Source of the DNA: an uncultured Oscillospiraceae bacterium
Lineage (GTDB): Bacteria; Bacillota; Clostridia; Oscillospirales; Oscillospiraceae
Length of the DNA stretch: 40,038 nt
NCBI GenBank assembly: GCA_944385665.1
Contig: CALWYB010000021.1
Span: 1-40,038, forward strand
Reading direction: 5' to 3'
Part shown: piece by piece, positions 14,551 through 28,633 of the stretch
Position numbering within the stretch: position 1 is the stretch's first letter
Layout: each line of letters opens with the position of its first letter
Position numbers and translations under genes: made by a program
Notes under the pieces: generated by a model
What the model saw: only the letters and a program-made list of their open reading frames with translations
Told to the model about the DNA's origin: nothing
The model's database searches: none

Positions 14551-14607
14551 ATGAACGCCGGTGTACTCCGTGGGAAGATCGGGCCCCGGCAGAAAGAGAT
14601 ACGTTGA
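14551..14607 (+). CDS. Possible 18-codon leader ORF upstream of rnfC
   Basis: ATG at 14551 follows AGGGAGGG with a short spacer and opens an 18-residue frame, MNAGVLRGKIGPRQKEIR, which ends 41 bp before rnfC. The frame is not hydrophobic and has no run of one amino acid, so it is not a classical attenuator peptide. The Shine-Dalgarno site is the main evidence. It may also be a chance occurrence. Confidence 0.25.
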   Translation: MNAGVLRGKIGPRQKEIR

Positions 14608-14648
14608 TTGTTCCCCAGCGATTGCAGTATAGGGAGGTTGAAATCCGA

Positions 14649-15959
14649 ATGAGTAAATTTCTCAAACGCTCTGCGCAAGGTGCGGGAGTTCCCCACGACA
14701 AGAGGACTTCCAACCTTGAGACGGTAGCGATGCCGCTTCCGTCAAAGATCGTCCTGTCCATGAACCAGCACATCGGCGCCCCCGCGGCGCCTGCTGTGGC
14801 CAAGGGCGATCAGGTGTACGTAGGCACCATCGTGGGCAAGGCCGGCGGCTTCGTCTCCGCCGACATCCACTCCGGTGTGTCCGGTACGGTCTCTGAGATC
14901 ACCACCATCACCGGCTCCAACGGTTCCATCCAGACCGCCGTGGTCATCGTGCCCGACGGCGAGCAGAAGGTGGACCCCTCCATCGCGCCCCCTCAGGTCA
15001 CCGACCTGAAGTCCTTCCAGGATGCCGTGCGTGCCAGCGGCCTGGTGGGTCTGGGCGGCGCCGGCTTCCCCACCGCGGTGAAGCTTGCCCCCAAGAATCT
15101 GGACGAGATCGATACCTTGATTATCAACGGCGCCGAGTGTGAGCCCTATATTACCTCGGATAACCGTTGTTTCATCGAGGACACTCACTTCATCCTCAGC
15201 GGCATCAAGGCTGTCATGAAGTATCTGAACATTCCCAAGTGCATCATCGGCATCGAGGGCAACAAGCCTGAGGCCATTGCCAAGATGAAGGCCGCCATCG
15301 ACGTGCCCGGCGTAGAGGTCAAGGAGCTGCCCTGCCGCTACCCCCAGGGCGCTGAGAAAGTGCTCATCGAGAACTGCACCGGCCGGGAAGTTCCCTTCCC
15401 CGGCCTGCCCGCCGATGTGGGCGTGATCGTGATGAACGTCACCTCCACCGCCTTTGTGGGCAAGTACTTAGAGACCGGCATGCCTCTGACCACCAAGCGC
15501 CTCACCGTAGACGGCGACATCGTCAAGGAGCCCAAGAATGTGGAAGTCATCATCGGCACCCCCATTGAGGAGCTGCTGAACTTCTGCGGCGGCCTCACCG
15601 AGGAGCCCGGCAAGGTGCTCTACGGCGGCCCCATGATGGGTACCTGCGTGGCCAGCCTGGACCAGCCCATTCTGAAGAACAACAACGCCGTTCTGGCTTT
15701 CTCCAAGAAGTTTGCCCACATCCCTAAGGCCACCAACTGCATCCACTGCGGCCGGTGCGTCAACGCCTGCCCCTTGGGTCTGGCGGCCAAGGACATCGTC
15801 AAGGCCTATGAGAAGGGCGATGTGGATCTGCTCAAGGAGCTCAACGCCGACCTGTGCATGAGCTGCGGCACCTGCTCCTTCGTTTGCCCGGCCAAGCGGC
15901 CTCTGGCTCCCTCCATTGCGCTGGCGAAGATCATGATGAAGAATGGAGGTAAGAAGTGA
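14649..15959 (+). CDS. rnfC: Rnf complex subunit RnfC (NADH-binding, 4Fe-4S)
   Basis: The peripheral subunit of the ferredoxin:NAD+ oxidoreductase (Rnf), carrying the NADH site. It has 436 residues. The N-terminal barrel-like domain is followed by the NuoF-like GLGGAGFPTAVKL nucleotide/FMN loop. Two 4Fe-4S motifs follow near the C terminus, CIHCGRCVNACPLGL and CMSCGTCSFVCPAKRPL. The ATG follows GGGAGG by about ten bases. It is the first gene of rnfCDGEAB, the usual clostridial order. The stop overlaps the rnfD start (TGATG). It lacks the long C-terminal Ala-rich extension of proteobacterial RnfC. Confidence 0.97.
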   Translation: MSKFLKRSAQGAGVPHDKRTSNLETVAMPLPSKIVLSMNQHIGAPAAPAVAKGDQVYVGTIVGKAGGFVSADIHSGVSGTVSEITTITGSNGSIQTAVVIVPDGEQKVDPSIAPPQVTDLKSFQDAVRASGLVGLGGAGFPTAVKLAPKNLDEIDTLIINGAECEPYITSDNRCFIEDTHFILSGIKAVMKYLNIPKCIIGIEGNKPEAIAKMKAAIDVPGVEVKELPCRYPQGAEKVLIENCTGREVPFPGLPADVGVIVMNVTSTAFVGKYLETGMPLTTKRLTVDGDIVKEPKNVEVIIGTPIEELLNFCGGLTEEPGKVLYGGPMMGTCVASLDQPILKNNNAVLAFSKKFAHIPKATNCIHCGRCVNACPLGLAAKDIVKAYEKGDVDLLKELNADLCMSCGTCSFVCPAKRPLAPSIALAKIMMKNGGKK

Positions 15960-16900
15960 TGGGCAATAAATTGATTGTCACTGCCGCGCCCCACATTACC
16001 AGCGCGGACAGCACCCAGAAGATCATGCAGCGGGTGTGCATCGCCCTGCTGCCCACCCTGGTGGCTTCGGTCATCATTTTCGGCGTCAACGCCCTGATCC
16101 TCACGGTGATCACGGTGGCCGCCTGTGTGATTTTTGAGTACCTGTACTGCAAGCTGGTGGGCCGTGAGGTCGCCATCGGCGACTTCTCCGCCGTGGTCAC
16201 CGGCCTGCTGCTGGCCTTCAACCTGCCCTCCACGCTGCCCTGGTGGATGCCCATTGTGGGCGCCTTCATCGCCATCGTGGTGGTCAAGCAGCTCTTCGGC
16301 GGCCTGGGCTACAACTTTGCCAACCCCGCCATTGTGGGCCGTATCGCCATGGCCATGGGCTTTGCCGGCGCCATGTCCTCCTACGGCTTCCCCCAGGGCG
16401 TGGACGCCACCTCCGCCGCTACCCCGCTGTCCTCTGCCGCTCAGGGCATTGACTATGTCACCCTGCTGCTGGGCAACCACGGCGGCGTGCTGGGTGAGAC
16501 CTGCGCCATTACCCTGATCATCGGCGGCCTGTATCTGATCGCCACCAAGGTCATCAGCCCCACCATCCCCGTGACCTACCTGGCCACTGTGGCTGTGCTG
16601 AGCCTGATCGCCGGCAAGGACCCCATCTATCAGCTGCTCTCCGGCGGCCTGCTGCTGGGCGCCTTCTTCATGGCCACCGACTATGTCACCTCTCCCACCA
16701 CCACCAAGGGCAAGCTGGTCTTCGGTATTGGCCTGGGTGTTATCACCTGCGCCATCCGTTTCCTGGGCCGGATGAACGAGGGCGTGTCCTTCGCTATCCT
16801 GCTGATGAACCTGGTTGTCCCCTACATTGAGGTCCTGACCCGTCAGGATCGTCTGGGCATCGCCAAGGTGAAGAAGAGCAAGGAGGGTGCCGCAAAATGA
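15959..16900 (+). CDS. rnfD: Rnf complex subunit RnfD
   Basis: An integral membrane subunit (313 residues, about eight to ten hydrophobic segments) homologous to NqrB. It carries covalently bound FMN. The flavinylation segment TDYVTSPTTTKGK is visible near residue 240. GYNFANPAIVGRIAMAMGFAG is another family motif. The start overlaps the rnfC stop. An in-frame GTG three bases earlier is possible. The end overlaps the rnfG start (ATGA), showing tight translational coupling. Confidence 0.96.
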   Translation: MGNKLIVTAAPHITSADSTQKIMQRVCIALLPTLVASVIIFGVNALILTVITVAACVIFEYLYCKLVGREVAIGDFSAVVTGLLLAFNLPSTLPWWMPIVGAFIAIVVVKQLFGGLGYNFANPAIVGRIAMAMGFAGAMSSYGFPQGVDATSAATPLSSAAQGIDYVTLLLGNHGGVLGETCAITLIIGGLYLIATKVISPTIPVTYLATVAVLSLIAGKDPIYQLLSGGLLLGAFFMATDYVTSPTTTKGKLVFGIGLGVITCAIRFLGRMNEGVSFAILLMNLVVPYIEVLTRQDRLGIAKVKKSKEGAAK

Positions 16901-17430
16901 GTAACTGGAACAAGATTTTTAAGCCCATTGTTGTGCTGGTGGTCATCTGCATCGTAGTGACCGGCGCCCTGGCTGCCACCAACAGCAAGACCGCCCCCAT
17001 CATTGAGGCTGCTACCATCGAGGCCGAGCGGCAGGCTCGTTCCGAGCTGCTGCCCGAGGCCGAGGACTTCGAAGAGGTCACCGGCGTGGACGTGGCCAAT
17101 GTCTCCGCCATCTATAAGTCCACCAACGACGTGGGCGTGGTCATCACCAGCTCCGCCAAGGGCTACGGCGGCGACGTGGTGGTTATGACCGCCATCACCC
17201 CCGACGGCACCATCAAGCAGATCAAGGTCACCGAGCAGGCCGAGACCAAGGGCATCGGCAGCAAGGTTGTGGACACCCCCTCCTACTGGGAGAACTACCA
17301 GGGTCTGGACGCCTCTCAGCCTCTGGTCCTCAACCAGGACGTGGACGCGGTGACCTCCGCCACCATCTCCAGCACGGCTTTGATTACCGCGGTGAACTCC
17401 GCCATCGAAGCCTACAACGCGATTCCTTGA
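16897..17430 (+). CDS. rnfG: Rnf complex subunit RnfG (FMN-binding)
   Basis: A 177-residue subunit with one N-terminal transmembrane helix (residues about 8-27) and an extracytoplasmic FMN-binding domain. Covalent FMN is expected on the threonine of the C-terminal motif DAVTSATISSTALITAV. The upstream KGYGGDVVVMTAI and ETKGIGSKVVD stretches are also family features. It shares four bases with rnfD. It is somewhat short compared with proteobacterial RnfG but usual for Clostridia. Confidence 0.95.
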   Translation: MSNWNKIFKPIVVLVVICIVVTGALAATNSKTAPIIEAATIEAERQARSELLPEAEDFEEVTGVDVANVSAIYKSTNDVGVVITSSAKGYGGDVVVMTAITPDGTIKQIKVTEQAETKGIGSKVVDTPSYWENYQGLDASQPLVLNQDVDAVTSATISSTALITAVNSAIEAYNAIP

Positions 17431-17446
17431 AAGGCAGGTGTATGAG

Positions 17447-18142
17447 ATGAGTAATAAACCCAGTAAACTTAAGATACTGACCAACGGTATCTTGAACGAG
17501 AACCCGGTACTGCGGCTTGTCCTGGGCACCTGTCCCACTCTGGCCACCTCTACCATGGCCTCCAACGGCATCGGCATGGGTCTGGCGGCCACCTTCGTGC
17601 TGCTGTGCTCCAACATCGTAATTTCCGCCCTGCGGAAGGTCATCCCCGACCAGGTTCGTATCCCCTGTTACATCACCGTCATCGCCGGCTTCGTGTCGGT
17701 GGTACAGATGCTGGTCAAGGCCTTCGTGCCCGCCCTGGACTCCGCTCTGGGCGTGTACCTGCCTCTGATCGTGGTAAACTGCATCATCCTGGGCCGTGCT
17801 GAGATGTTTGCCTCTAAGAACGGCGTCTTTGATTCCGCTCTGGACGGCATCGGCATGGGCATCGGCTTTACCATCACCCTGACCCTCATGGGCACCATCC
17901 GTGAGATCCTGGGTTCCGGTACCTGGATGTCCGGCCTGGACGGCCTGTTCCCCTTCCTGCCTGACGGCTTCGCGATCCAGGTTCTGCCTGAGTCCATTGA
18001 TCCCTTCACCATCATGACCAGCGCCCCCGGCGGCTTCTTTGTCTTTGGTGTGATGATGGCCGCTGCCACCTGGCTGACCACCCGCCCCAAGAAGGAGAAG
18101 ACCTCCGCTCCTGCTGAGACTGCGGAAGGAGGGAATGCGTAA
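17447..18142 (+). CDS. rnfE: Rnf complex subunit RnfE
   Basis: A membrane subunit related to NqrD and paralogous to RnfA, with 231 residues and about six helices. Typical motifs are NPVLRLVLGTCPTLATST, the central CYITVIAGFVSVVQML and LIVVNCIILGRAEMFAS. In Rnf/Nqr complexes the RnfA/E pair holds a 2Fe-2S centre through conserved cysteines and forms part of the ion path. The ATG at 17447 follows GCAGG by eight bases. A GTG at 17438 would add three residues. A C-terminal polar tail of about 20 residues is extra. The stop and the rnfA start share one base. Confidence 0.95.
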   Translation: MSNKPSKLKILTNGILNENPVLRLVLGTCPTLATSTMASNGIGMGLAATFVLLCSNIVISALRKVIPDQVRIPCYITVIAGFVSVVQMLVKAFVPALDSALGVYLPLIVVNCIILGRAEMFASKNGVFDSALDGIGMGIGFTITLTLMGTIREILGSGTWMSGLDGLFPFLPDGFAIQVLPESIDPFTIMTSAPGGFFVFGVMMAAATWLTTRPKKEKTSAPAETAEGGNA

Positions 18143-18753
18143 TGAACGCTATGCATCTTGCAAGCATCTTCTTCACCATGATCCTGGTGGATAACTACGT
18201 TCTGGTGAAGTTCCTGGGTATCTGCCCCTTCCTGGGCGTGTCCAAGAAGCTGGACAGCGCCGTGGGCATGTCCCTGGCCGTTACCTTCGTCATGGTGCTG
18301 GCTACCGCCGCCACCTGGCCCATCCAGATGTTCCTGCTCACCCCCGCCAGCGGCGCCTGGGATCTGGGCTACCTGCAGACCATCGTCTTCATTCTGATCA
18401 TCGCCATCCTGGTACAGCTGCTGGAGAACATCCTGAAGAAGTTCATCCCCGCTCTGTATAAGGCTCTGGGCGTGTATCTGCCCCTGATCACCACCAACTG
18501 CACCATCCTGGGCGTGACCGTGCTGAACATCGACAACGGTTACAACTTCCTGGAGAGCATCGTGTGTGCCGCCGGCGCCGGCCTGGGCTTCCTGGTGGCC
18601 ATGGTCCTGTTCTCCGGCGTGCGCCGCAAGGTCGAGGAGGCTGTCACTCCCAAGTGCTTTGAGGGTCTGCCCATCACCCTGGTGGCTGCTGCGGTGACCT
18701 CCCTGTCCTTCATGGGCTTCGGCGGTATCATCGAGTCCATCTTCGGCGCTTGA
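18142..18753 (+). CDS. rnfA: Rnf complex subunit RnfA
   Basis: A six-helix membrane subunit of 203 residues, homologous to NqrE. It has the motifs NYVLVKFLGICPFLGVSKK and LPLITTNCTILGV, whose cysteines are expected to bind the membrane 2Fe-2S centre shared with RnfE. TAATG overlap couples it to rnfE, and GAAGGAGG lies just upstream. Length and motifs are normal. Confidence 0.96.
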   Translation: MNAMHLASIFFTMILVDNYVLVKFLGICPFLGVSKKLDSAVGMSLAVTFVMVLATAATWPIQMFLLTPASGAWDLGYLQTIVFILIIAILVQLLENILKKFIPALYKALGVYLPLITTNCTILGVTVLNIDNGYNFLESIVCAAGAGLGFLVAMVLFSGVRRKVEEAVTPKCFEGLPITLVAAAVTSLSFMGFGGIIESIFGA

Positions 18754-18772
18754 TTAGGAGGGAGAGTGTAAT

Positions 18773-19573
18773 ATGAGTCCGATTCTTATGGCAATCGTTC
18801 TGGTCACGGTCATTGGCCTGATCGGCGCGATTATTCTGGTGGCTGCCTCCATCTTCATGTATGTTCCCGTGGACGAGCGGGTGGAGAAGATCACCGCCGT
18901 TCTGGCCGGCGCCAACTGCGGCGCCTGCGGCTGCGCCGGCTGCGCCGACTACGCCAAGAGCATCGTAGAGGACGGCAACGCCATCAACAAGTGTACCCCC
19001 GGCGGCGCCAAGTCCATGGCTGCCATCGCGGAGATCATGGGTGTCCAGGCGGAGGCCACCGTGCCTATGAAGGCGGTTGTGGCCTGCTCCGGTACCTGCG
19101 ACAAGACCTCCAAGAAGTACGAGTTTGAGGGTATCCAGAGCTGCCAGGCCGTCAAGGGCCTGTACGGCGGCGACGGCATGTGCCAGTACGGCTGCCTGGG
19201 CTACGGCGATTGTACCCGGGCCTGCGTCTTTGACGCCATCCACATTGTGGACGGCATCGCTAAGGTGGACCGGGAAAAGTGCACCGGCTGCGGCGCCTGC
19301 GCGGCGGCCTGCCCCAACCACGTGATCAGCGTGATTCCCGAGCACAAGCGCAAGCCTGTGGTCGCCTGTCAGAACAAGGACAAGGGCGCTCAGACCCGCA
19401 AGGCCTGCACCGCCGGCTGCATCGGCTGCATGAAGTGCGCCAAGGCCTGCCCCAAGCAGGCCATCACCGTGGAGAACAACGTGGCCTACATCGACCAGTC
19501 CATCTGCGTGGGCTGCCAGCTGTGCGTCAAGGAGTGCCCCGTGGGCGTCATTCACGTGCCCGCCACCATGTGA
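18773..19573 (+). CDS. rnfB: Rnf complex subunit RnfB (ferredoxin-interacting, multi 4Fe-4S)
   Basis: The electron-entry subunit that accepts electrons from reduced ferredoxin. It has 266 residues. One N-terminal transmembrane helix is followed by the four-cysteine cluster domain GANCGACGCAGCADYA. Ferredoxin-like 4Fe-4S motifs follow: CTGCGACAAACP, CIGCMKCAKACP and CVGCQLCVKECP. The ATG follows AGGAGGGAG. It is the last gene of the operon and is followed by a strong terminator at 19602. Confidence 0.97.
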   Translation: MSPILMAIVLVTVIGLIGAIILVAASIFMYVPVDERVEKITAVLAGANCGACGCAGCADYAKSIVEDGNAINKCTPGGAKSMAAIAEIMGVQAEATVPMKAVVACSGTCDKTSKKYEFEGIQSCQAVKGLYGGDGMCQYGCLGYGDCTRACVFDAIHIVDGIAKVDREKCTGCGACAAACPNHVISVIPEHKRKPVVACQNKDKGAQTRKACTAGCIGCMKCAKACPKQAITVENNVAYIDQSICVGCQLCVKECPVGVIHVPATM

Positions 19574-19705: not shown

Positions 19706-19757
19706 GCGAAACGAAGTTTCGCAGGAAGTTCTTTGCCAAGCTTTCTTTCAAGAAAGC
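19706..19757. repeat. Two-hairpin palindromic unit, possibly interspersed
   Basis: GCGAAAC/GTTTCGC (19706-19722) and GCTTTCT/AGAAAGC (19740-19757) form two small hairpins about 17 bp apart. The second overlaps the last codons and stop of the response regulator. The layout resembles short palindromic units found after genes in some Oscillospiraceae. No second copy occurs in this window, so repeat status is unproven. Confidence 0.3.
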
Positions 19758-20419
19758 GGGTGGTAGAGCATGCAGGGGCGGCCGCCGGTGTCGTAGTTCA
19801 TCTGGCTCACCGCCTCCCCCTCGTCCACCAGATAGGAGAGGTACCGGCGCACTGTGACCGCCGAGAAGCCGGCCCGCTCCGCAATCTCGTCGCAGGTAGC
19901 GCCGGCCTGGGGGACCTGCCTCAGACAGGCGCGGATCCGGTCCAAGGTGCGGGCCTGGAGCCCCTTGGGGATGGATGGGGATGAGGCGGCAGGAGAGGCG
20001 GGGAAGAGAGCGTCCAGCTCCTGCTGGCTGACGCTGTCGTGGGAGACAGCCTCCCGGTGCTGGCAGAAGGTGTCCAGGGCCTGCTGAAAGCGGCTGGAGG
20101 CGAAGGGTTTGACCAGGTAGTCGATGACCCCCAGCTTCAGCAGGGCATCCACCGTCTTGCTGTCGTTGGCGGCGGTGACCATGATGGCGTCAATGCCGAT
20201 GCCGGCGGAGCGCAGAGACCGCAGCAGCTCCAGGCCGGTCATCTTGGGCATATATACGTCCAAAATAATCAGATCGGCGGGGTGGTGTAGCAGCCAGGTC
20301 AGGGCGGCGTCGCCGTTGGCAAAGGCGTGGGCCAGAGAAAATCGATTGTCCCGGGCCAAAAAGGTCCGGTGGAGCATGGAGATCGTGGGATCGTCCTCCA
20401 CGATAACAGTTTGATACAT
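19748..20419 (-). CDS. CitB/DcuR-type response regulator
   Basis: A cytoplasmic DNA-binding response regulator of 223 residues. The receiver domain (1-120) has VEDDPT at the acidic pocket, the phospho-acceptor aspartate in LIILDVYMPKMTGLELL, and the lysine in YLVKPF. The C-terminal domain (about 150-223) has the helix-turn-helix CDEIAERAGFSAVTVRRYLS of the DcuR/CitB family. The start was set at the ATG with GGAGG seven bases upstream. A TTG 12 bases earlier lacks support. It lies 33 bp after the sensor kinase and would be phosphorylated by it. Its target genes are not evident. The final residues fall within a palindromic unit. Confidence 0.93.
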   Translation of the reverse strand: MYQTVIVEDDPTISMLHRTFLARDNRFSLAHAFANGDAALTWLLHHPADLIILDVYMPKMTGLELLRSLRSAGIGIDAIMVTAANDSKTVDALLKLGVIDYLVKPFASSRFQQALDTFCQHREAVSHDSVSQQELDALFPASPAASSPSIPKGLQARTLDRIRACLRQVPQAGATCDEIAERAGFSAVTVRRYLSYLVDEGEAVSQMNYDTGGRPCMLYHPLS

Positions 20420-20452
20420 AGAGACCTCCAAGGTATCAGGAAAAAACGGGGG

Positions 20453-22066
20453 TCAGTTCCGTTTTCCCTGGGCATAGAACGTAAGGAAGAAGGAGGTGCC
20501 CGACTTGGGCTCACTCTCCACCCGGATCTCGCCCTGGTACACGTTGACCAGGTCCTTGATCCGGGACAGGCCGATGCCGTGTCCCTCTCCCTTGGTAGAG
20601 ACGTTGGGCTCGAAGATGTAAGGCAGCAGTTCAGGCACGATTCCCGGGCCGGTGTCCTCTACACACAGCAGCAGCTGATCCTCCTTTTCCCGGATGCTCA
20701 CATTGATCTCTCGAAGCTTCCAGGAGGAGCGGTTGAGGACCTCGGTGGCGTTTTCGATGAGATTGCCCAGAATGGTCACCAGCACGCCGGAGGGGAGGAA
20801 GCGCTCGTCCGGGGACAGGGAGCTCTTGGGGTCCAGCTGCAAATGGATGCCCAGCTCGGTGGCCCGGCTGGTCTTGCCCACCAGCAGGGCGGCTACAGCG
20901 GTGTCCTGGATCTGGTTCATGACCCGGCTCACGGACTGGTGGTGGACCTCCGAAATGTCCAGAATGTACTGCTCCGCCTTGTCCGCCTGACCCAGCTGGA
21001 TCATGCCCAGGATGGTGTGGAGCTTATTGACAAATTCGTGGGTGTAGGCCCGCATGGCCTCCACCAAATGGCGCACGCCGGTGAGCTCCTCCGCCAGAGC
21101 GGTGGCCTCGCTGCGGTCCCGGAAAATGGCTACCGCGCCCACCACCTTGCCGTTTTCCAGAATGGGCATCCGGTCGGACAGGGCGGTGCGCAGGCCGGGG
21201 ACATGGGAGAGGTGGACATTGTACTCCGACTTGCCGGTGACCAGCAGACGGGAGAGGCGGGAGTCGGGGTAGACCTCATGGAGCTCCTTGCCCAAAACAC
21301 TGTCCAGGTCCTTGGCGTTGACCATGCGCAGGCCCGCCTGGTTCATGTAGACGATGCGGGAGTCGGTATCAATGGCCAGAATGCCCTCCTCCAAAGCGTC
21401 CAGAACGCCCTCCCGCTGGTGGAACATGCGCTGGAAGGTGTCTGGCTCGTAGCCCATGAGGGACTCTTTAATCGAAAGAGACAGGTGCCGGGACAAAACC
21501 AGACCTACGCTGGTGGCCACACAGGTGAGGATCAGAAAACAGGCCACGGTATCCAGTACGATGCGGTTGACGCTGTGCACGCCGATGCCCACGGAGACGA
21601 AACCCAGCAGAGTGCCGTCCTGGTCGTGGACGGCGGCCTGGGCCCGGTGCTCTACGCCGGAGATGCCCGCGCCGGTATCCACCTCGCTGTCCTGGCCGTG
21701 GAGGACGGACAGGGAATCCAGCTCCGGATAGGTAGAGCCCACATAGGAGGCGTCAGGGCTGTATACAATGGTACCCTGAGTGTCGGCCACTACGATGGCG
21801 TCGATATCCGTCACCCGGGAGATGGTTCCGTCCAGGTAGTCGGTGAGCACCTCCTGGTTTGAGCGCCCCGCCAGCACATCGGCCACGTCGGGGGACTGGG
21901 CCAGCACGAGAGCGGAGTTCATCAGGTTCCGGTCCAGATTGTCGTACTCCATGCGCAGGGAGAAGGCCAGGGTGGTGGTCATTCCCAGCACGGCGGTGGT
22001 CAGGATCAGGAACAGGCTCAGGGTCTGGATCTTTTGACGTAAGGTTTTAGAACTGTAAAGCTTCAC
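20453..22066 (-). CDS. CitA/DcuS-type sensor histidine kinase
   Basis: A membrane sensor of 537 residues. TM1 is near residues 15-36, followed by an extracytoplasmic PDC-like domain (about 37-165) and TM2 (about 170-192). A cytoplasmic PAS domain (about 210-310) precedes a DHp helix with the acceptor histidine in YTHEFVNKLHTI. The ATPase domain has NLIENATEVL, EDTGPGI and GHGIGLS. The family senses citrate, malate, fumarate or similar acids. The start is a GTG seven bases after GGGAGGGG. The frame stays open for 77 codons upstream, but that stretch contains the promoter, so it is not coding. No transporter gene is adjacent, so the ligand is unknown. Confidence 0.93.
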   Translation of the reverse strand: MKLYSSKTLRQKIQTLSLFLILTTAVLGMTTTLAFSLRMEYDNLDRNLMNSALVLAQSPDVADVLAGRSNQEVLTDYLDGTISRVTDIDAIVVADTQGTIVYSPDASYVGSTYPELDSLSVLHGQDSEVDTGAGISGVEHRAQAAVHDQDGTLLGFVSVGIGVHSVNRIVLDTVACFLILTCVATSVGLVLSRHLSLSIKESLMGYEPDTFQRMFHQREGVLDALEEGILAIDTDSRIVYMNQAGLRMVNAKDLDSVLGKELHEVYPDSRLSRLLVTGKSEYNVHLSHVPGLRTALSDRMPILENGKVVGAVAIFRDRSEATALAEELTGVRHLVEAMRAYTHEFVNKLHTILGMIQLGQADKAEQYILDISEVHHQSVSRVMNQIQDTAVAALLVGKTSRATELGIHLQLDPKSSLSPDERFLPSGVLVTILGNLIENATEVLNRSSWKLREINVSIREKEDQLLLCVEDTGPGIVPELLPYIFEPNVSTKGEGHGIGLSRIKDLVNVYQGEIRVESEPKSGTSFFLTFYAQGKRN

Positions 22067-22145
22067 TCCTATACCCCTCCCTAAAAATACAGCCTCTGGA
22101 CACAAAACGGGTGAGCTGGGGCTGACGGTGGACCTTGACATTTTT

Positions 22146-22174
22146 ATTATAAGGATTTTCCTTTCTACTGTCAA
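22146..22174 (-). promoter_or_regulatory. Consensus sigma-A promoter of the two-component operon
   Basis: On the minus strand TTGACA (22169-22174) and TATAAT (22146-22151) are separated by 17 bp, a perfect match in both hexamers. The predicted leader before the kinase GTG is about 70 nt. Confidence 0.9.
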
Positions 22175-22335
22175 ACACCTGGGGAAAAACAAACAAAATG
22201 AGACAAAAAAGAAAAGAAAACGCATAAAATAGCTGAGTGCCTCCGGAGACAGGAAGCGGGGGATATTTATTTTTTTTACTTTAAAAAGACTGTTCAAAGC
22301 AGGAGCACATGTTTAAGATAAGGATGGTCTTTTGT

Positions 22336-22355
22336 GGTGCGGGGGAGCCCGCACC
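22336..22355 (+). promoter_or_regulatory. Small hairpin before the atpB ribosome binding site
   Basis: GGTGCGGG and CCCGCACC form an 8-bp stem with a GGAG loop, ten bases before the GGGAGG that serves the TTG start of atpB. It has no T run. It may influence translation of atpB. The rest of 22175-22335 is AT-rich and shows no convincing plus-strand promoter, although one must drive the atp operon. Confidence 0.35.
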
Positions 22356-22377
22356 CGACTATCCGGGAGGTGGTTAT

Positions 22378-23073
22378 TTGGAACAGATCAAGGAGAAGCT
22401 GCTGGAGGAGCTGCAAACGCCCACGGCCTTTACCATTTCCATAGGAAAGGGGATCCCAATCACCGAGTCGGTGGTGGTGTCCTGGATCGTGATGGCGGTG
22501 CTCATTCTGGCGGCCCTGCTGCTCACCAGGAACCTGAAGGTGGAAAACCCAGGCAAGCTTCAGGTGGGACTGGAAGAGGCGGTGAAGTTTTTAAACAACT
22601 TTGCCAACAGCAGCATCGGAAAACACGGCGGACGGTTTGCGTCCTACCTGGGAACCATCGCGCTCTACATTCTGCTGAGCAACATCATAGGCATCTTTGG
22701 CCTGGTGCCCCCCACCAAGGACATCAACGTCACCGCGGCTCTGGCCGTGATGAGCGCGTTTTTGATCTACGGAGCCCAGTTCCGTTACCGGGGACTTCTG
22801 GGCGGACTGAAACAGTTCACTAAGCCCATGGCCCTGCTGCTGCCCATCAACCTGATGGAGATTATCATCCGGCCCCTGGCTTTGTGTATGCGTCTCTTTG
22901 GCAACATCTTAGGCGCCTTCATTATTATGGAGCTTATCAAGCTCCTGTGCCCGGCGGTGGTGCCGGTACCCTTCAGCATCTACTTTGATCTGTTTGACGG
23001 CACCATCCAGGCCATCGTATTTGTATTTTTGACCGCGCTGTTCACCGGCGAAGGAATTCAGGACGAGGAGTAA
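22378..23073 (+). CDS. atpB: ATP synthase Fo subunit a
   Basis: The stator membrane subunit forming the ion half-channels (231 residues, about six helices). The essential arginine lies in RPLALCMRLFGNILGAF. The stretch QFTKPMALLLPINLMEII and the C-terminal FVFLTALFTGE are family features. The start was set at a TTG with GGGAGG seven bases upstream. An in-frame ATG at 22309 would add 23 residues, but they do not look like the family and that ATG has only a three-base spacer after AGGAG. It is the first gene of atpBEF(HA)GDC. No atpI is present. Confidence 0.93.
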   Translation: MEQIKEKLLEELQTPTAFTISIGKGIPITESVVVSWIVMAVLILAALLLTRNLKVENPGKLQVGLEEAVKFLNNFANSSIGKHGGRFASYLGTIALYILLSNIIGIFGLVPPTKDINVTAALAVMSAFLIYGAQFRYRGLLGGLKQFTKPMALLLPINLMEIIIRPLALCMRLFGNILGAFIIMELIKLLCPAVVPVPFSIYFDLFDGTIQAIVFVFLTALFTGEGIQDEE

Positions 23074-23112: not shown

Positions 23113-23331
23113 ATGGAAATCGGAATGCTTGCGATCGGAATGTCTGTTATGACCGGCATCGGCGCCGGTATCGGAATCGGGATTGCCACCGGCAAGGCCA
23201 GCGAGGCCATTGCCCGTCAGCCCGAGGCCTCCGGTAAGATCAACAGCGCCCTGCTTCTGGGCTGCGCCCTGGCAGAAGGCACCGCCATCTTTGGCTTTAT
23301 CACTGCTCTGCTGATTTTGTTCATGGGCTGA
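23113..23331 (+). CDS. atpE: ATP synthase Fo subunit c
   Basis: The ring-forming proteolipid: 72 residues, two transmembrane helices joined by the polar loop ARQPEASGK. The ion-binding glutamate is E55 in GCALAEGTAIFGF. The residues usual in sodium-type c subunits are not there. The first-helix Gln is Ile22, the Ser after the glutamate is Gly56, and the Tyr is Phe60. This points to proton coupling (inference). The ATG follows AAGGAGGA. It sits between atpB and atpF as usual. Confidence 0.96.
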   Translation: MEIGMLAIGMSVMTGIGAGIGIGIATGKASEAIARQPEASGKINSALLLGCALAEGTAIFGFITALLILFMG

Positions 23332-23353: not shown

Positions 23354-23842
23354 ATGTTGGAATTTCAGATTTCCACCATTGCACTCACCGTCCTCAATCT
23401 GCTGATCCTCTATGTGATCCTGAAAAAGCTGCTCTTCGGGCGGGTGAACAAGGTACTGGAAGATCGGGCGGCCCTGATCCAGCAGACGCTGGATGAGGCG
23501 CAGAGAGAAAAGCAGAAGGCCGATGAGCTGAAAAAGGAATATGAGGACCGTCTGGCCCAGGCCCGCACCGAGGCCAACGGCATCCTGTCCCAGGCCAAGA
23601 CCCGGGGCGAGAAGGAGTACCAGTCTATCCTGGCCCAGGCTCAGGAGGACGCCCAGCGCACCCGGGAGCAGTCCAAGGCCCGGGCTCAGGCGGAGCGGGA
23701 CGAGATGCTGCGCACCGCCCGGCGTGAGGTGGCCCAGCTGGCCATGGAGGCGGCCTCCAAGGTGACCCGGAAGGCCCTGGATTCCGATTCGGATCGGGCA
23801 ATTCTGGACGATTTCCTGGCGGAGGCAGGTGAAAAGAAATGA
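23354..23842 (+). CDS. atpF: ATP synthase Fo subunit b
   Basis: The peripheral stalk subunit: 162 residues with one N-terminal transmembrane helix (about 7-26) followed by a long charged helix rich in Ala, Gln, Glu and Arg. The helix dimerises as a right-handed coiled coil and holds F1 through delta. [22 protein letters not shown] is the conserved junction. AAGGAGG lies upstream of the ATG. The stop overlaps the start of the next frame (ATGA). Confidence 0.95.
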
Positions 23843-25881
23843 CAGAACTGATTCAGCGTTATGCCGCCGCCCTGTATGACTTGGCCCAGACCGATGACAT
23901 GGGACTGACCGGCGCGGCCCAGGAGCTGCTGGAGCAAAAGCAGCTGTGGAAGGCCCTTACCAGCTCTGCGGTGCAGGTGGAGGAGAAGAAGGAACTCATC
24001 CGCTCCGCCGCCCCTCTGGCCGGGATGGAGCCGCTCCAGGCGTTCCTGTGCCTGTTGGCGGAAGAGGGCCAACTGGACCTGTTCCCCGACATTCTGGAGG
24101 AGGTCCACCAGCTGGAGCTGGCGGCCGACGGCGGCGCGGTATGTGTGATGACCTGCGCCCACAAGCCCGACCAGGCGGCGTTGGCAGAGGTGCGCAAGGC
24201 GGTGTGCCGCCTGCGGAATCTGGACCGGGTGGTCCTCCAGGTGAAGATCGACCCGGAGCTGCTGGGCGGCTTTGTGCTGGAGGTCCAGGGCGTGACCTAC
24301 GACCGCAGCGTCAAGGGCCGGCTGGAGCGGCTGGCCAAGGGCCTGGAGAAGGGTGCCTCGGTGAGCGAGAGCATGGAGGAGCTTATGGGAAGCCTGCGGG
24401 AGACCGTGAAGGGCTTCCAGGTGGGCCAGGACAGCAGCGAGACCGGCCGGGTGCTGGAGATTGGCGACGGCATCGCCACCGTCCAGGGCCTGGACCGGGC
24501 GGTCTACGGCGAGCTGGTGGAGTTTGAGACCGGCGTGAAGGGCATGGTCATGGACCTGTCCCGGGAGACGGTGGGCTGCGTGCTGCTGGGCCGGGAAGAG
24601 GGCCTGGGAGAAGGCAGCCGGGTCACCCGTACCGGCCGTCCCGCCGACGTGCCGGTAGGCCGGGCTCTGCTGGGCCGGGTAGTGGACGCCATGGGCAACC
24701 CCATCGACGGTCTGGGTCCCATCCACGCCGCCGATACCCGCCCCATCGAGCGGGAGGCCAGCGGCGTCATCTCCAGAGAACCGGTCAACGTCCCCCTGCA
24801 GACCGGCATTCTGGCCATCGACTCCATGGTGCCCATTGGCCGGGGCCAGCGTGAGCTGATCATCGGCGACCGGCAGACCGGCAAGACGGCCATTGCCGTG
24901 GATACCATCCTCAACCAGAAGGACCAGGATGTGATCTGCATCTACGTGGCCATCGGCCAGAAGGCCTCCTCGGTGGCCCACGTGCGGGACACCCTGCAAA
25001 AGCACGGGGCTATGGAGTATTCCGTTATCGTCTCCGCCCCCGCCAGCGACCCCGCCCCCCTGCAGTATATCGCCCCCTATGCCGGCGCGGCCATGGGCGA
25101 GTATTTTATGGAGCAGGGACGGGACGTGCTCATCGTATACGACGATCTGAGCAAGCACGCCGTGGCCTACCGGGCCCTGTCCCTGCTGCTCAAGCGCTCC
25201 CCCGGCCGTGAGGCCTACCCCGGCGACGTGTTCTATCTCCACTCCCGTCTGCTGGAGCGGGCATGCCGCCTGACGGAGGAGTACGGCGGTGGCTCCATGA
25301 CCGCCCTGCCCATCATTGAGACTCAGGCGGGCGACGTGTCCGCCTATATCCCCACCAACGTCATCTCCATCACCGACGGCCAGATCTATCTGGAGACCGA
25401 CCTGTTCTTCTCTGGCCAGCGGCCCGCCGTCAACGTGGGCCTGTCCGTCTCCCGTGTAGGCGGCGCGGCCCAGACCCGGGCCATCAAGCGTACCGCCGGT
25501 ACCCTTCGTATCGACCTGGCCCGGTTCCGGGAGCTGGAGGTCTTTACCCAGTTCTCCTCGGATTTGGATCAGGCCACCCAGAAGACCCTGGACCACGGCA
25601 AGCGGCTGCTGGAGCTGTTAAAGCAGCCCCTGTACCAGCCTATGAAGGTAAGCCAGCAGGCCATTCTCCTTTACATTGCCACCAACGGGCTGCTGGACGA
25701 TGTACCCCTGGATCAGGTGCGGGCGTTTGCCCTGGAGTTTGCCAAGCGCATGGAACAGGAGCACTGGGAGCTCACCGCTGAGGTGCAGCGCACCGGCAAC
25801 CTGTCCGGCGTGGCGGTGGAGACCATCCGTGCCGCCCTGGCGGACTACAAGAAGGAGAAGCTGCCCCAGGCCCAGGCATAA
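23839..25881 (+). CDS. atpHA: ATP synthase F1 delta-alpha fusion protein
   Basis: One uninterrupted frame of 680 residues encodes both delta and alpha. Residues 1-172 are delta: [11 protein letters not shown] at the N terminus and [20 protein letters not shown] at the end. Residues from about 175 are a complete alpha. It has the N-terminal helix that normally binds delta, [17 protein letters not shown], then the Walker [12 protein letters not shown] and the Arg-finger region [10 protein letters not shown]. No stop or start-stop junction separates them. Normally F1 has three alphas but one delta, so a fusion raises a stoichiometry problem. An internal GTG at 24361 could yield a normal 506-residue alpha. 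It overlaps atpF by four bases. Confidence 0.93.
24344..24363 (+). promoter_or_regulatory. Candidate internal ribosome binding site and GTG start for free alpha
   Basis: Within the fused frame, GGAGAAGGG is followed by seven bases and an in-frame GTG at 24361 (codon 175). Initiation there would give an alpha of 506 residues, the standard length, with an intact N-terminal helix. Two further in-frame ATGs follow at 24373 and 24385. Confidence 0.4.
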
Positions 25882-25899
25882 AAAGGAAGGCGAGGACCG

Positions 25900-26784
25900 A
25901 TGGCTGGAATCAAAGAGATCCGCACCCGGATCAAAAGCGTGCAGCAGACCCTGAAGATCACCAACGCCATGTACCTGATCTCCTCGGCCAATCTGCGCAA
26001 AGCCAAAGGACGGCTGGACAACACCGTCCCCTATTTTAAGAAAATATTTGAAACCATCGCCCACATCCTCCACCACTCTCCGGAGCTGGAGCACAGCTTT
26101 TTCGATCAGCGGCCCAATGTGCCCCAGGACAGGCGGAAAGTGGGCTATATCGTGGTCACCGGCGACAAAGGTCTGGCCGGTGCGTACAGCCACAATGTGC
26201 TGAAGCTGGCCCAGCAGCGGGTGGAGGAGCAGAACGATCCCACCCTGTTTGTGGTGGGCATTGTGGGCCGGGTCTACTGTCAGAACCGGGACATCCCCTT
26301 TGAAGAGGACTTCAACTATGTGGCCCAGAACCCCACCATGCGCCGGGCCGGTGAGATCACCGACGAGGTGGTGGGCCGCTTCCTCAACCGGGAGTTGGAT
26401 GAGGTGTACATCATCTACACCGAGATGGTCTCCGCCCTGCGCCTGGAGGTGCGGGAGCAGAAGCTGCTGCCCCTGGTGCGGGAGGACTTTCCCTGGGACA
26501 AGGCGGGCGACCCGGAGTACCGCCAGGAGGTCCGCTATATCCCCTCGGAGGAGGCGGTGCTGGACAATATCGTGCCCAACTATGTTCAGGGTATGATCTT
26601 CGGCGCCCTGGTGGAGTCCTACTGCTCGGAGCAGAGCGCCCGGATGACCGCCATGGAGTCGGCCAGCGACAACGCCAAGGATATGCTCAAGAAGCTGTCC
26701 CTGACCTACCACCGGGCCCGTCAGGCGGCCATCACCCAGGAGATCACCGAGGTGGCCGGCGGAGCCCAGAACGCCCGCAGATGA
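25900..26784 (+). CDS. atpG: ATP synthase F1 subunit gamma
   Basis: The central rotor shaft: 294 residues, with N- and C-terminal helices forming the coiled coil inside the alpha3beta3 ring. It begins MAGIKEIRTRIKSVQQTLKI. Its C terminus ends in the conserved ARQAAITQEITEVAGGAQ. The middle Rossmann-like domain has VVTGDKGLAGAYSHNV. The N-terminal helix TNAMYLISSANLRKAK departs from the common TKAM-VAAAKLRKA pattern. GGAAGG lies upstream of the ATG. Confidence 0.94.
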   Translation: MAGIKEIRTRIKSVQQTLKITNAMYLISSANLRKAKGRLDNTVPYFKKIFETIAHILHHSPELEHSFFDQRPNVPQDRRKVGYIVVTGDKGLAGAYSHNVLKLAQQRVEEQNDPTLFVVGIVGRVYCQNRDIPFEEDFNYVAQNPTMRRAGEITDEVVGRFLNRELDEVYIIYTEMVSALRLEVREQKLLPLVREDFPWDKAGDPEYRQEVRYIPSEEAVLDNIVPNYVQGMIFGALVESYCSEQSARMTAMESASDNAKDMLKKLSLTYHRARQAAITQEITEVAGGAQNARR

Positions 26785-28221
<1,437 letters not shown>

Positions 28222-28222
28222 T

Positions 28223-28633
28223 ATGGCCGAGGAGCGGCAGTTCCACCTGGAGATCGTGACCCCTGACCGGCAGTTCTTCATCGGTGAGGCCCAGGAGCTG
28301 ACCGTGCCCGCCATCGACGGCTCTCTGGGGGTGCTGGCCGGCCACGAGCCGGCGGTGACCGCCCTGGAGCCCGGTGAGCTGCGCTACCGGGCCAACGGGG
28401 AGTGGCACGAGGCGGTGGTCAGCCAGGGCCTGGTGGAGATCATGCCCGAAAAAGTCATGGTGCTGGTGTTTTCCGCCGAGCGGCCCGAGGAGATCGACCG
28501 GGCCCGTGCCGAGGCCGCCAAGGAGCGGGCCGAGGAGCGCCTGCGTCAGAAGCTGAGCATGCGGGACTACTACAATTCCAAGGCCGCCCTGGCCCGAGCA
28601 TTGGCCCGGCTCAAAGCGTCCAAGCGGCACTAA
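28223..28633 (+). CDS. atpC: ATP synthase F1 subunit epsilon
   Basis: A rotor subunit of 136 residues. The N-terminal beta-sandwich has LEIVTPDRQFFIGEAQ and PAIDGSLGVLAGHEP. The C-terminal two-helix domain is rich in Ala, Arg and Glu and can act as an inhibitory ratchet. The ATG comes one base after the atpD stop, so translation is coupled. It is the last gene of the operon, followed by a strong terminator. Confidence 0.95.
   Translation: MAEERQFHLEIVTPDRQFFIGEAQELTVPAIDGSLGVLAGHEPAVTALEPGELRYRANGEWHEAVVSQGLVEIMPEKVMVLVFSAERPEEIDRARAEAAKERAEERLRQKLSMRDYYNSKAALARALARLKASKRH

Follow-up and report, generated by a model that had tools for sequence, protein, structure and literature searches.

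The atp operon considered here joins the delta and alpha subunits of the F1 ATP synthase in one polypeptide. It lies in the window, the whole stretch of 40,038 nucleotides from an uncultured Oscillospiraceae bacterium that was analysed. Such a fusion, present in a group of gut bacteria, should give the enzyme three deltas instead of the normal one, and this raises the question of the number of side stalks. The initial annotation of the locus reasoned that a strict fusion forces three deltas per enzyme, unless there is processing or a second start, and the dilemma was judged to be rightly posed.

The delta-alpha reading frame and its operon

The fused gene occupies positions 23839-25881 of the forward strand, from an ATG at 23839 to a TAA ending at 25881, and encodes 680 amino acids; no internal stop was found in this frame across the 680 codons. 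The open reading frames, Pfam and NCBIfam bear out the view that a complete delta and a complete alpha share it. The Pfam OSCP model (PF00213) matches residues 6-168, covering positions 3-171 of the 172 in the profile, with 101.7 bits against a cut-off of 22.3, and by this profile both the N- and the C-terminal domain of delta are present. Three Pfam ATP-synt_ab models cover residues 199-669, and the NCBIfam atpA equivalog TIGR00962 matches residues 179-673 (profile 4-500 of 503; 762 bits against a cut-off of 484). The approximate limits are residues 1-175 for delta and 179-680 for alpha.

The delta N-terminal domain (NTD; 23839-24129, residues 1-97), with six predicted helices, was recognised by our own NTD profile (E 2.4e-20), by the OSCP profile and by AlphaFold helices within residues 3-96. 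It is followed by the C-terminal domain (CTD; 24130-24366, residues 98-176), found by OSCP and by our own CTD profile (E 1.2e-25), and by the alpha part (24373-25881). At the junction (24352-24429) the AlphaFold pLDDT falls below 50 at residues 172-176 and 192-197, and the N-terminal helix of alpha, residues 179-191, lies between. The whole AlphaFold2 single-chain model, built with 45 fused sequences (pLDDT 78.3, pTM 0.71), comprises the six-helix NTD, the CTD, the low-confidence linker and this alpha helix.

Apart from the fusion the operon is ordinary, with the order a-c-b-[delta-alpha]-gamma-beta-epsilon, all on the forward strand. The gene atpB (subunit a, 254 aa, 22309-23073; Pfam ATP-synt_A, 1.7e-42) is followed by atpE (subunit c, 72 aa, 23113-23331), an open reading frame assigned by position and sequence, with a 72-aa frame in the same place in the sister genome, G012. 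Next comes atpF (subunit b, 162 aa, 23354-23842; Pfam ATP-synt_B, 3.7e-26), whose stop codon is overlapped by the ATG of the fused gene (ATGA). Downstream are atpG (gamma, 294 aa, 25900-26784; Pfam ATP-synt, 3.3e-94), atpD (beta, 468 aa, GTG start, 26815-28221), assigned from its frame, its position and a 27% match to the alpha query, and atpC (epsilon, 136 aa, 28223-28633). The last lies within a longer frame (28130-28633), and the 136-aa frame of the sister has the same initial residues.

A single OSCP match, the fused one, and a single F-type alpha match were found in the window genome; a second delta may have been missed there, since the genome is 95% complete. In G012 and G201, which both carry full fusions, no second delta was found above the cut-off, all PF00213 matches other than the fused one being below it.

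The frame is under purifying selection in the NTD and also in the linker, the latter with few codons (26). Between the window and its sister, dN/dS by the NG86 method was 0.059 for the NTD, 0.097 for the CTD, 0.123 for the linker and 0.056 for alpha. Among eight Gemmiger-type pairs the values were 0.12-0.28 in the NTD and 0.09-0.54 in the linker. Such values should be expected of a junction translated in frame together with an NTD kept by selection.

Distribution and types of the fusion among relatives

The delta-alpha fusion in the window is real. In a genus draw of 61 genomes, 41 of them with a match, whole-length matches were obtained in G000 and in the one-contig genome G012, which has the same 680-aa frame with 96% identity; G011, on reading, has a similar open frame of 702 codons. 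The full fusion is also present in the complete genome CCNA10 (AP018533.1) and in the named strains Pseudoflavonifractor phocaeensis An569 and Gemmiger gallinarum DSM 109015. Among the 37 of 80 named loci that were examined (L158-L192, L212 and L224), full-fusion records bear the names Pseudoflavonifractor, Flavonifractor, Intestinimonas, Subdoligranulum and Gemmiger, many being metagenome assemblies. Counted by eye among the matches listed, in-frame junctions occur in at least 49 genomes, two of them partial cases (G391 and G438), of an order sample in which 145 of 295 genomes matched, and in at least 13 genomes of a phylum sample in which 327 of 398 matched. Nothing on the fusion was found in plasmid records among the matches listed (the best 5 of 89 and the best 8 of 559).

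The window genome is a draft of 132 contigs, but loss of a stop through a sequencing or assembly error has a negligible probability, given the same architecture in G012, CCNA10, An569 and DSM 109015, and the artefact reading was rejected, since the fusion recurs in independent genomes, both complete ones and those of isolates. The same genomes speak against the missed stop or indel that the initial annotation had kept in mind. Relatives with split genes and an otherwise identical junction, its other reservation, were not found either: in the loci read, the junction of canonical relatives differs. Pseudoflavonifractor capillosus An827 and Flavonifractor An92 have adjacent delta and alpha in the same order as the window, and the alpha-gamma-beta part of the P. 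capillosus group is close to that of the window. Unlike in the window, however, the two genes are separate, alpha has its own start and ribosome site together with a PEEI-type N terminus, and delta is of another lineage.

The fusion is shared by relatives, with 27 distinct full delta-alpha loci (one cut at its 3' end) among the 167 distinct alpha loci typed. Types A, B and C were assigned with our own profiles built from canonical deltas, and type D by hand from the N-terminal extension, with a Pfam check on two of its 16 loci. There were 57 canonical loci (A), 27 full fusions (B), 3 eroded full fusions, 62 loci in which only the delta CTD is fused to alpha (C), 1 tandem, 16 of type D and 1 odd locus; these counts are not frequencies, because fused queries were used to collect the loci. 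Typing left out ten loci in which the P-loop regex found no match (L054, L067, L083, L096, L151, L152, L170, L178, L187 and L254); two of them, L054 and L067, show the same G102 operon, which by eye has a 675-aa fused frame. In the type C genomes G007, G021 and G595 the sole OSCP match is the CTD within the fusion; in G715 and G966 there is a canonical operon as well.

The three eroded loci (L071-L073) have about 84 residues ahead of the CTD, which give no match to our NTD profile, though in Pfam OSCP still covers residues 26-171 of L071. Their N-domain appears to be shortened at its start, and they look like an intermediate towards the C-domain-only type. The tandem locus L092 (the same gene as L106) encodes 675 aa with two delta CTDs before alpha, seen as two OSCP stretches. 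Type D (L081, L082, L084-L090, L093, L212, L246-L248, L252 and L253) is a b'-deltaCTD-alpha triple fusion with frames of about 741-815 codons from stop to stop, and in the operons read a separate b-like gene lies alongside. ATP-synt_B is above the Pfam cut-off in L090 and below it in L084. In this type alpha would be covalently anchored to the membrane, so that a three-stalk F-type enzyme is more plausible still. The odd operon, L095, has b fused to the delta CTD plus a short alpha, and on its reverse strand a 766-aa frame holds gamma and beta together; its neighbours in the alpha tree, L224 and L256, have them separate. By eye, the N-terminal helix segment of alpha seems to be duplicated in tandem at the junction in CCNA10 (L160, 4713-6812).

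The canonical N terminus of free alpha (PEEI-like; a criterion of our own, outside the NCBIfam definition) is absent from the window protein. By regex, the motif occurs in 54 of 57 canonical loci, in none of the 27 full fusions or the 3 eroded ones, in 1 of 16 type D loci and in 19 of 62 type C loci, 18 of these at a downstream place.

Evolution of the fused operons

All trees were computed under LG+G4 without mixture, the 131-row alpha tree being a quick one. It placed the window in a clade of 29 rows (A 15, B 9, C 5) and type D in one clade, and its starred branches imply at least three changes of C and at least six of B. In the neighbouring 51-row clade, three B rows are sister to 48 others (C 42, eroded B 3, B 2, tandem 1), a pattern that loss of the N-domain after fusion would produce. 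Two B rows lie within C, and the direction depends on a midpoint root.

Four further trees of the window clade omit loci with short flanks (L117, L159, L182 and L185) and near copies (L164, L165, L167, L168, L172, L174, L176, L273, L275 and L276); among their 20 canonical rows, L277 and L184 represent one and the same locus. The topology of the delta tree differs from that of the adjacent genes. In the delta tree the 13 B rows form one clade (99/100; 98% of 200 bootstraps), but a single B clade is rejected by gamma-beta (p 3e-47), by the alpha core (p 0.001) and by a-b (p 0.0065). In the a-b tree the 13 B rows and 10 canonical rows form one clade (98/99). The gamma-beta tree unites eight rows (100/99) which delta rejects as a group (p 0.0019). 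In windows of 50 residues, the fused L161 and the canonical L272 share 84-96% identity in gamma, 24-59% in delta and 34-44% in b.

Since the fused deltas form one clade that the gamma-beta, alpha and a-b trees reject, recombination has probably exchanged the delta half. The conflict between the trees is probably best explained if the operon exchanged its 5' part, breaking near the delta/alpha junction; convergence of the fused deltas is the alternative. The gamma-beta and alpha trees reject the view that the fusion descended vertically with the F1 genes from one ancestor of the B rows in the window clade. It seems unlikely that a fused ancestor was repeatedly split again, because canonical relatives retain the PEEI-type N terminus of alpha and a different delta lineage.

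Subunit stoichiometry and stalk number

A Foldseek search with the window model placed chains I, K and J of PDB entry 9jc1 first among PDB matches (571 columns, rmsd 3.5-4.0; TM-score 0.86-0.89 by target and 0.71-0.74 by query), and phmmer aligned 9jc1_I with window residues 133-656 in one stretch, junction included. This entry represents the PS3 enzyme of Ueno et al. (2025; PMC12229609), in which delta without its NTD (residues 2-104 removed) was fused to alpha. According to that paper, this deltaDeltaN-alpha FoF1 can carry as many as three stalks and a-subunits; SDS-PAGE gave an average of about two, and particles with three stalks were rare in cryo-EM. Its H+/ATP ratio is 5.8 versus 3.0. 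Its authors argue that the delta NTD, located on the symmetry axis, restricts the stalks to one, and name a natural NTD-free delta-alpha fusion, that of Acidaminococcus fermentans, along with the UniProt entries G4Q3K6 and A0A1I2C5T3.

In the engineered enzyme, as in the window, the delta CTD is joined to the N terminus of alpha, but the former is NTD-free, whereas the window protein is natural and has a conserved NTD. The A. fermentans-type fusion, as described in that paper, likewise has the delta CTD fused to alpha in the operon but lacks the NTD, as in type C. The initial annotation had taken the fusion to be non-standard. This does not hold for NTD-free forms, which by 2025 had been engineered, solved and noted in nature (PMC12229609), but a full-length fusion that keeps the NTD was not found described among the papers listed from one open-access library, which has few subscription papers or preprints. 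The delta-alpha kind of fusion is already known, and the retention of the NTD is the part not found described there. In the actinobacterial b-delta fusion (PMC5709465; PDB 7jg5 chain d), delta is also joined to another stator subunit, but the partner is b, so the three copies of alpha impose no three deltas; the window b is a separate frame to which delta is not fused.

A real, inherited and obligate fusion with three delta-alpha chains per F1 is the reading that we favour, with some reserve. So far as the window genome shows, one delta-alpha polypeptide would be the only source of both alpha and delta, and each F1 would for that reason carry three such chains, unless alpha is also made or cut free. 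Each delta CTD would sit above its own alpha and, as happens in the engineered PS3 enzyme, could serve as the docking site of a b dimer. Of the three NTDs, one would occupy the dimple at the centre of the crown, and the remaining two would be displaced, because the dimple fits only one. Most likely there is one stalk by default, with extra stalks possible, and relatives that have lost the NTD would be free to bind up to three. Against an obligate fusion, three tethered N-domains for one central site are structurally awkward, and the related C-domain-only fusions exceed the background in strong internal-start candidates.

Tentatively, a bolder arrangement may be proposed, in which three alphas each bear a stator-docking delta, one NTD caps the crown and the other two deltas bind b and a. 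The stalk number would then be variable and the ion-to-ATP ratio raised, and the enzyme would be a living intermediate to the N-domain-free and b'-delta-alpha three-stalk enzymes.

Internal initiation at M183, M179 or V175, giving free alpha and an F1 of one delta-alpha and two free alphas, would solve the stoichiometry but seems unlikely. The best candidate in the window is the ATG of M183 (24385-24387, forward strand), preceded by GGAGGAG at 24375-24381, and its ribosome-site score of -9.3 kcal/mol makes free alpha possible in this species, since it beats most canonical alpha starts; the same ATG scores -3.4 in the sister. CCNA10 (-9.3) and L161 (-9.8) have one strong candidate each. With the window these are the only 3 of 27 full fusions, and 3 of 79 linker candidates, at -8 or better, which does not exceed the 5.1% background among 3756 in-frame start codons in alpha bodies, whereas 55% of 85 operon starts reach this level. 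Three full fusions (L070, L163 and L249) have no ATG, GTG or TTG in the linker. With the limit at -6, 5 of the 27 full fusions qualify, compared with 54 of the 57 canonical alpha starts (median -7.9; 14 of 57 at -8 or better), a comparison flattering to the canonical set, for which the best ATG within a 16-codon window was taken. A conserved internal start in the full fusions is thus not supported by the linker starts and ribosome-site scores of the 27 loci. The suggestion of a second start is weakened in this general form and retains one plausible ATG in the window, that at 24385.

In type C the case for internal initiation is better: sites of -8 or better are present in 22 of 62 loci and make up 36 of 180 candidates, four times the background (34 of 62 loci reach -6), mostly at two places within the N-terminal segment of alpha. 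Even there, the ATG at -15 scores from -9.8 to +0.3, with 10 of 25 at -8 or better, and is not uniformly kept; 6 of 62 loci have no start codon in the linker. None of the 16 type D loci reaches -8. An operon of this sort can contain an unmistakable internal site, as L095 shows: AAGGAGG stands there eight bases before an internal ATG for beta in the gamma-beta frame.

Slightly less probable still is a fused precursor that is cleaved within the linker, either once made or in the course of assembly, leaving ordinary alpha and delta, with surplus delta degraded. Cleavage is possible because the linker is predicted at low confidence by AlphaFold, varies in sequence and length between species, and has a dN/dS of up to 0.54 in one Gemmiger-type pair. 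However, no shared cleavage motif was seen by eye in the linkers listed, the PEEI-like motif of free alpha N termini is missing, and related loci retain a fused delta C-domain without the N-domain.

If the obligate fusion is correct, a lineage with a complete delta on every alpha would directly test the rule of Ueno et al. that the NTD sets the stalk number to one. The relatives provide a natural gradation, from canonical genes through the full fusion, the eroded N-domain, the lone C-domain and the tandem C-domain to b'-delta-alpha. The existence of natural multi-stalk ATP synthases, and the possibility that they let fermenting gut bacteria make ATP at a low ion gradient, could be tested in cultured species. 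Upstream of the atp operon, at 14604-19573, lies what we take to be an Rnf-like operon, and between the two, on the minus strand (19748-22297), presumably a two-component system. An Rnf-type operon in this place would suit a fermenter that makes do with a small ion gradient, which is a suggestion only. Two more rotary-ATPase-like matches, of 28-30% identity, lie on contig C87 of G000 (24218-26472) and perhaps belong to a V/A-type ATPase of the same genome.
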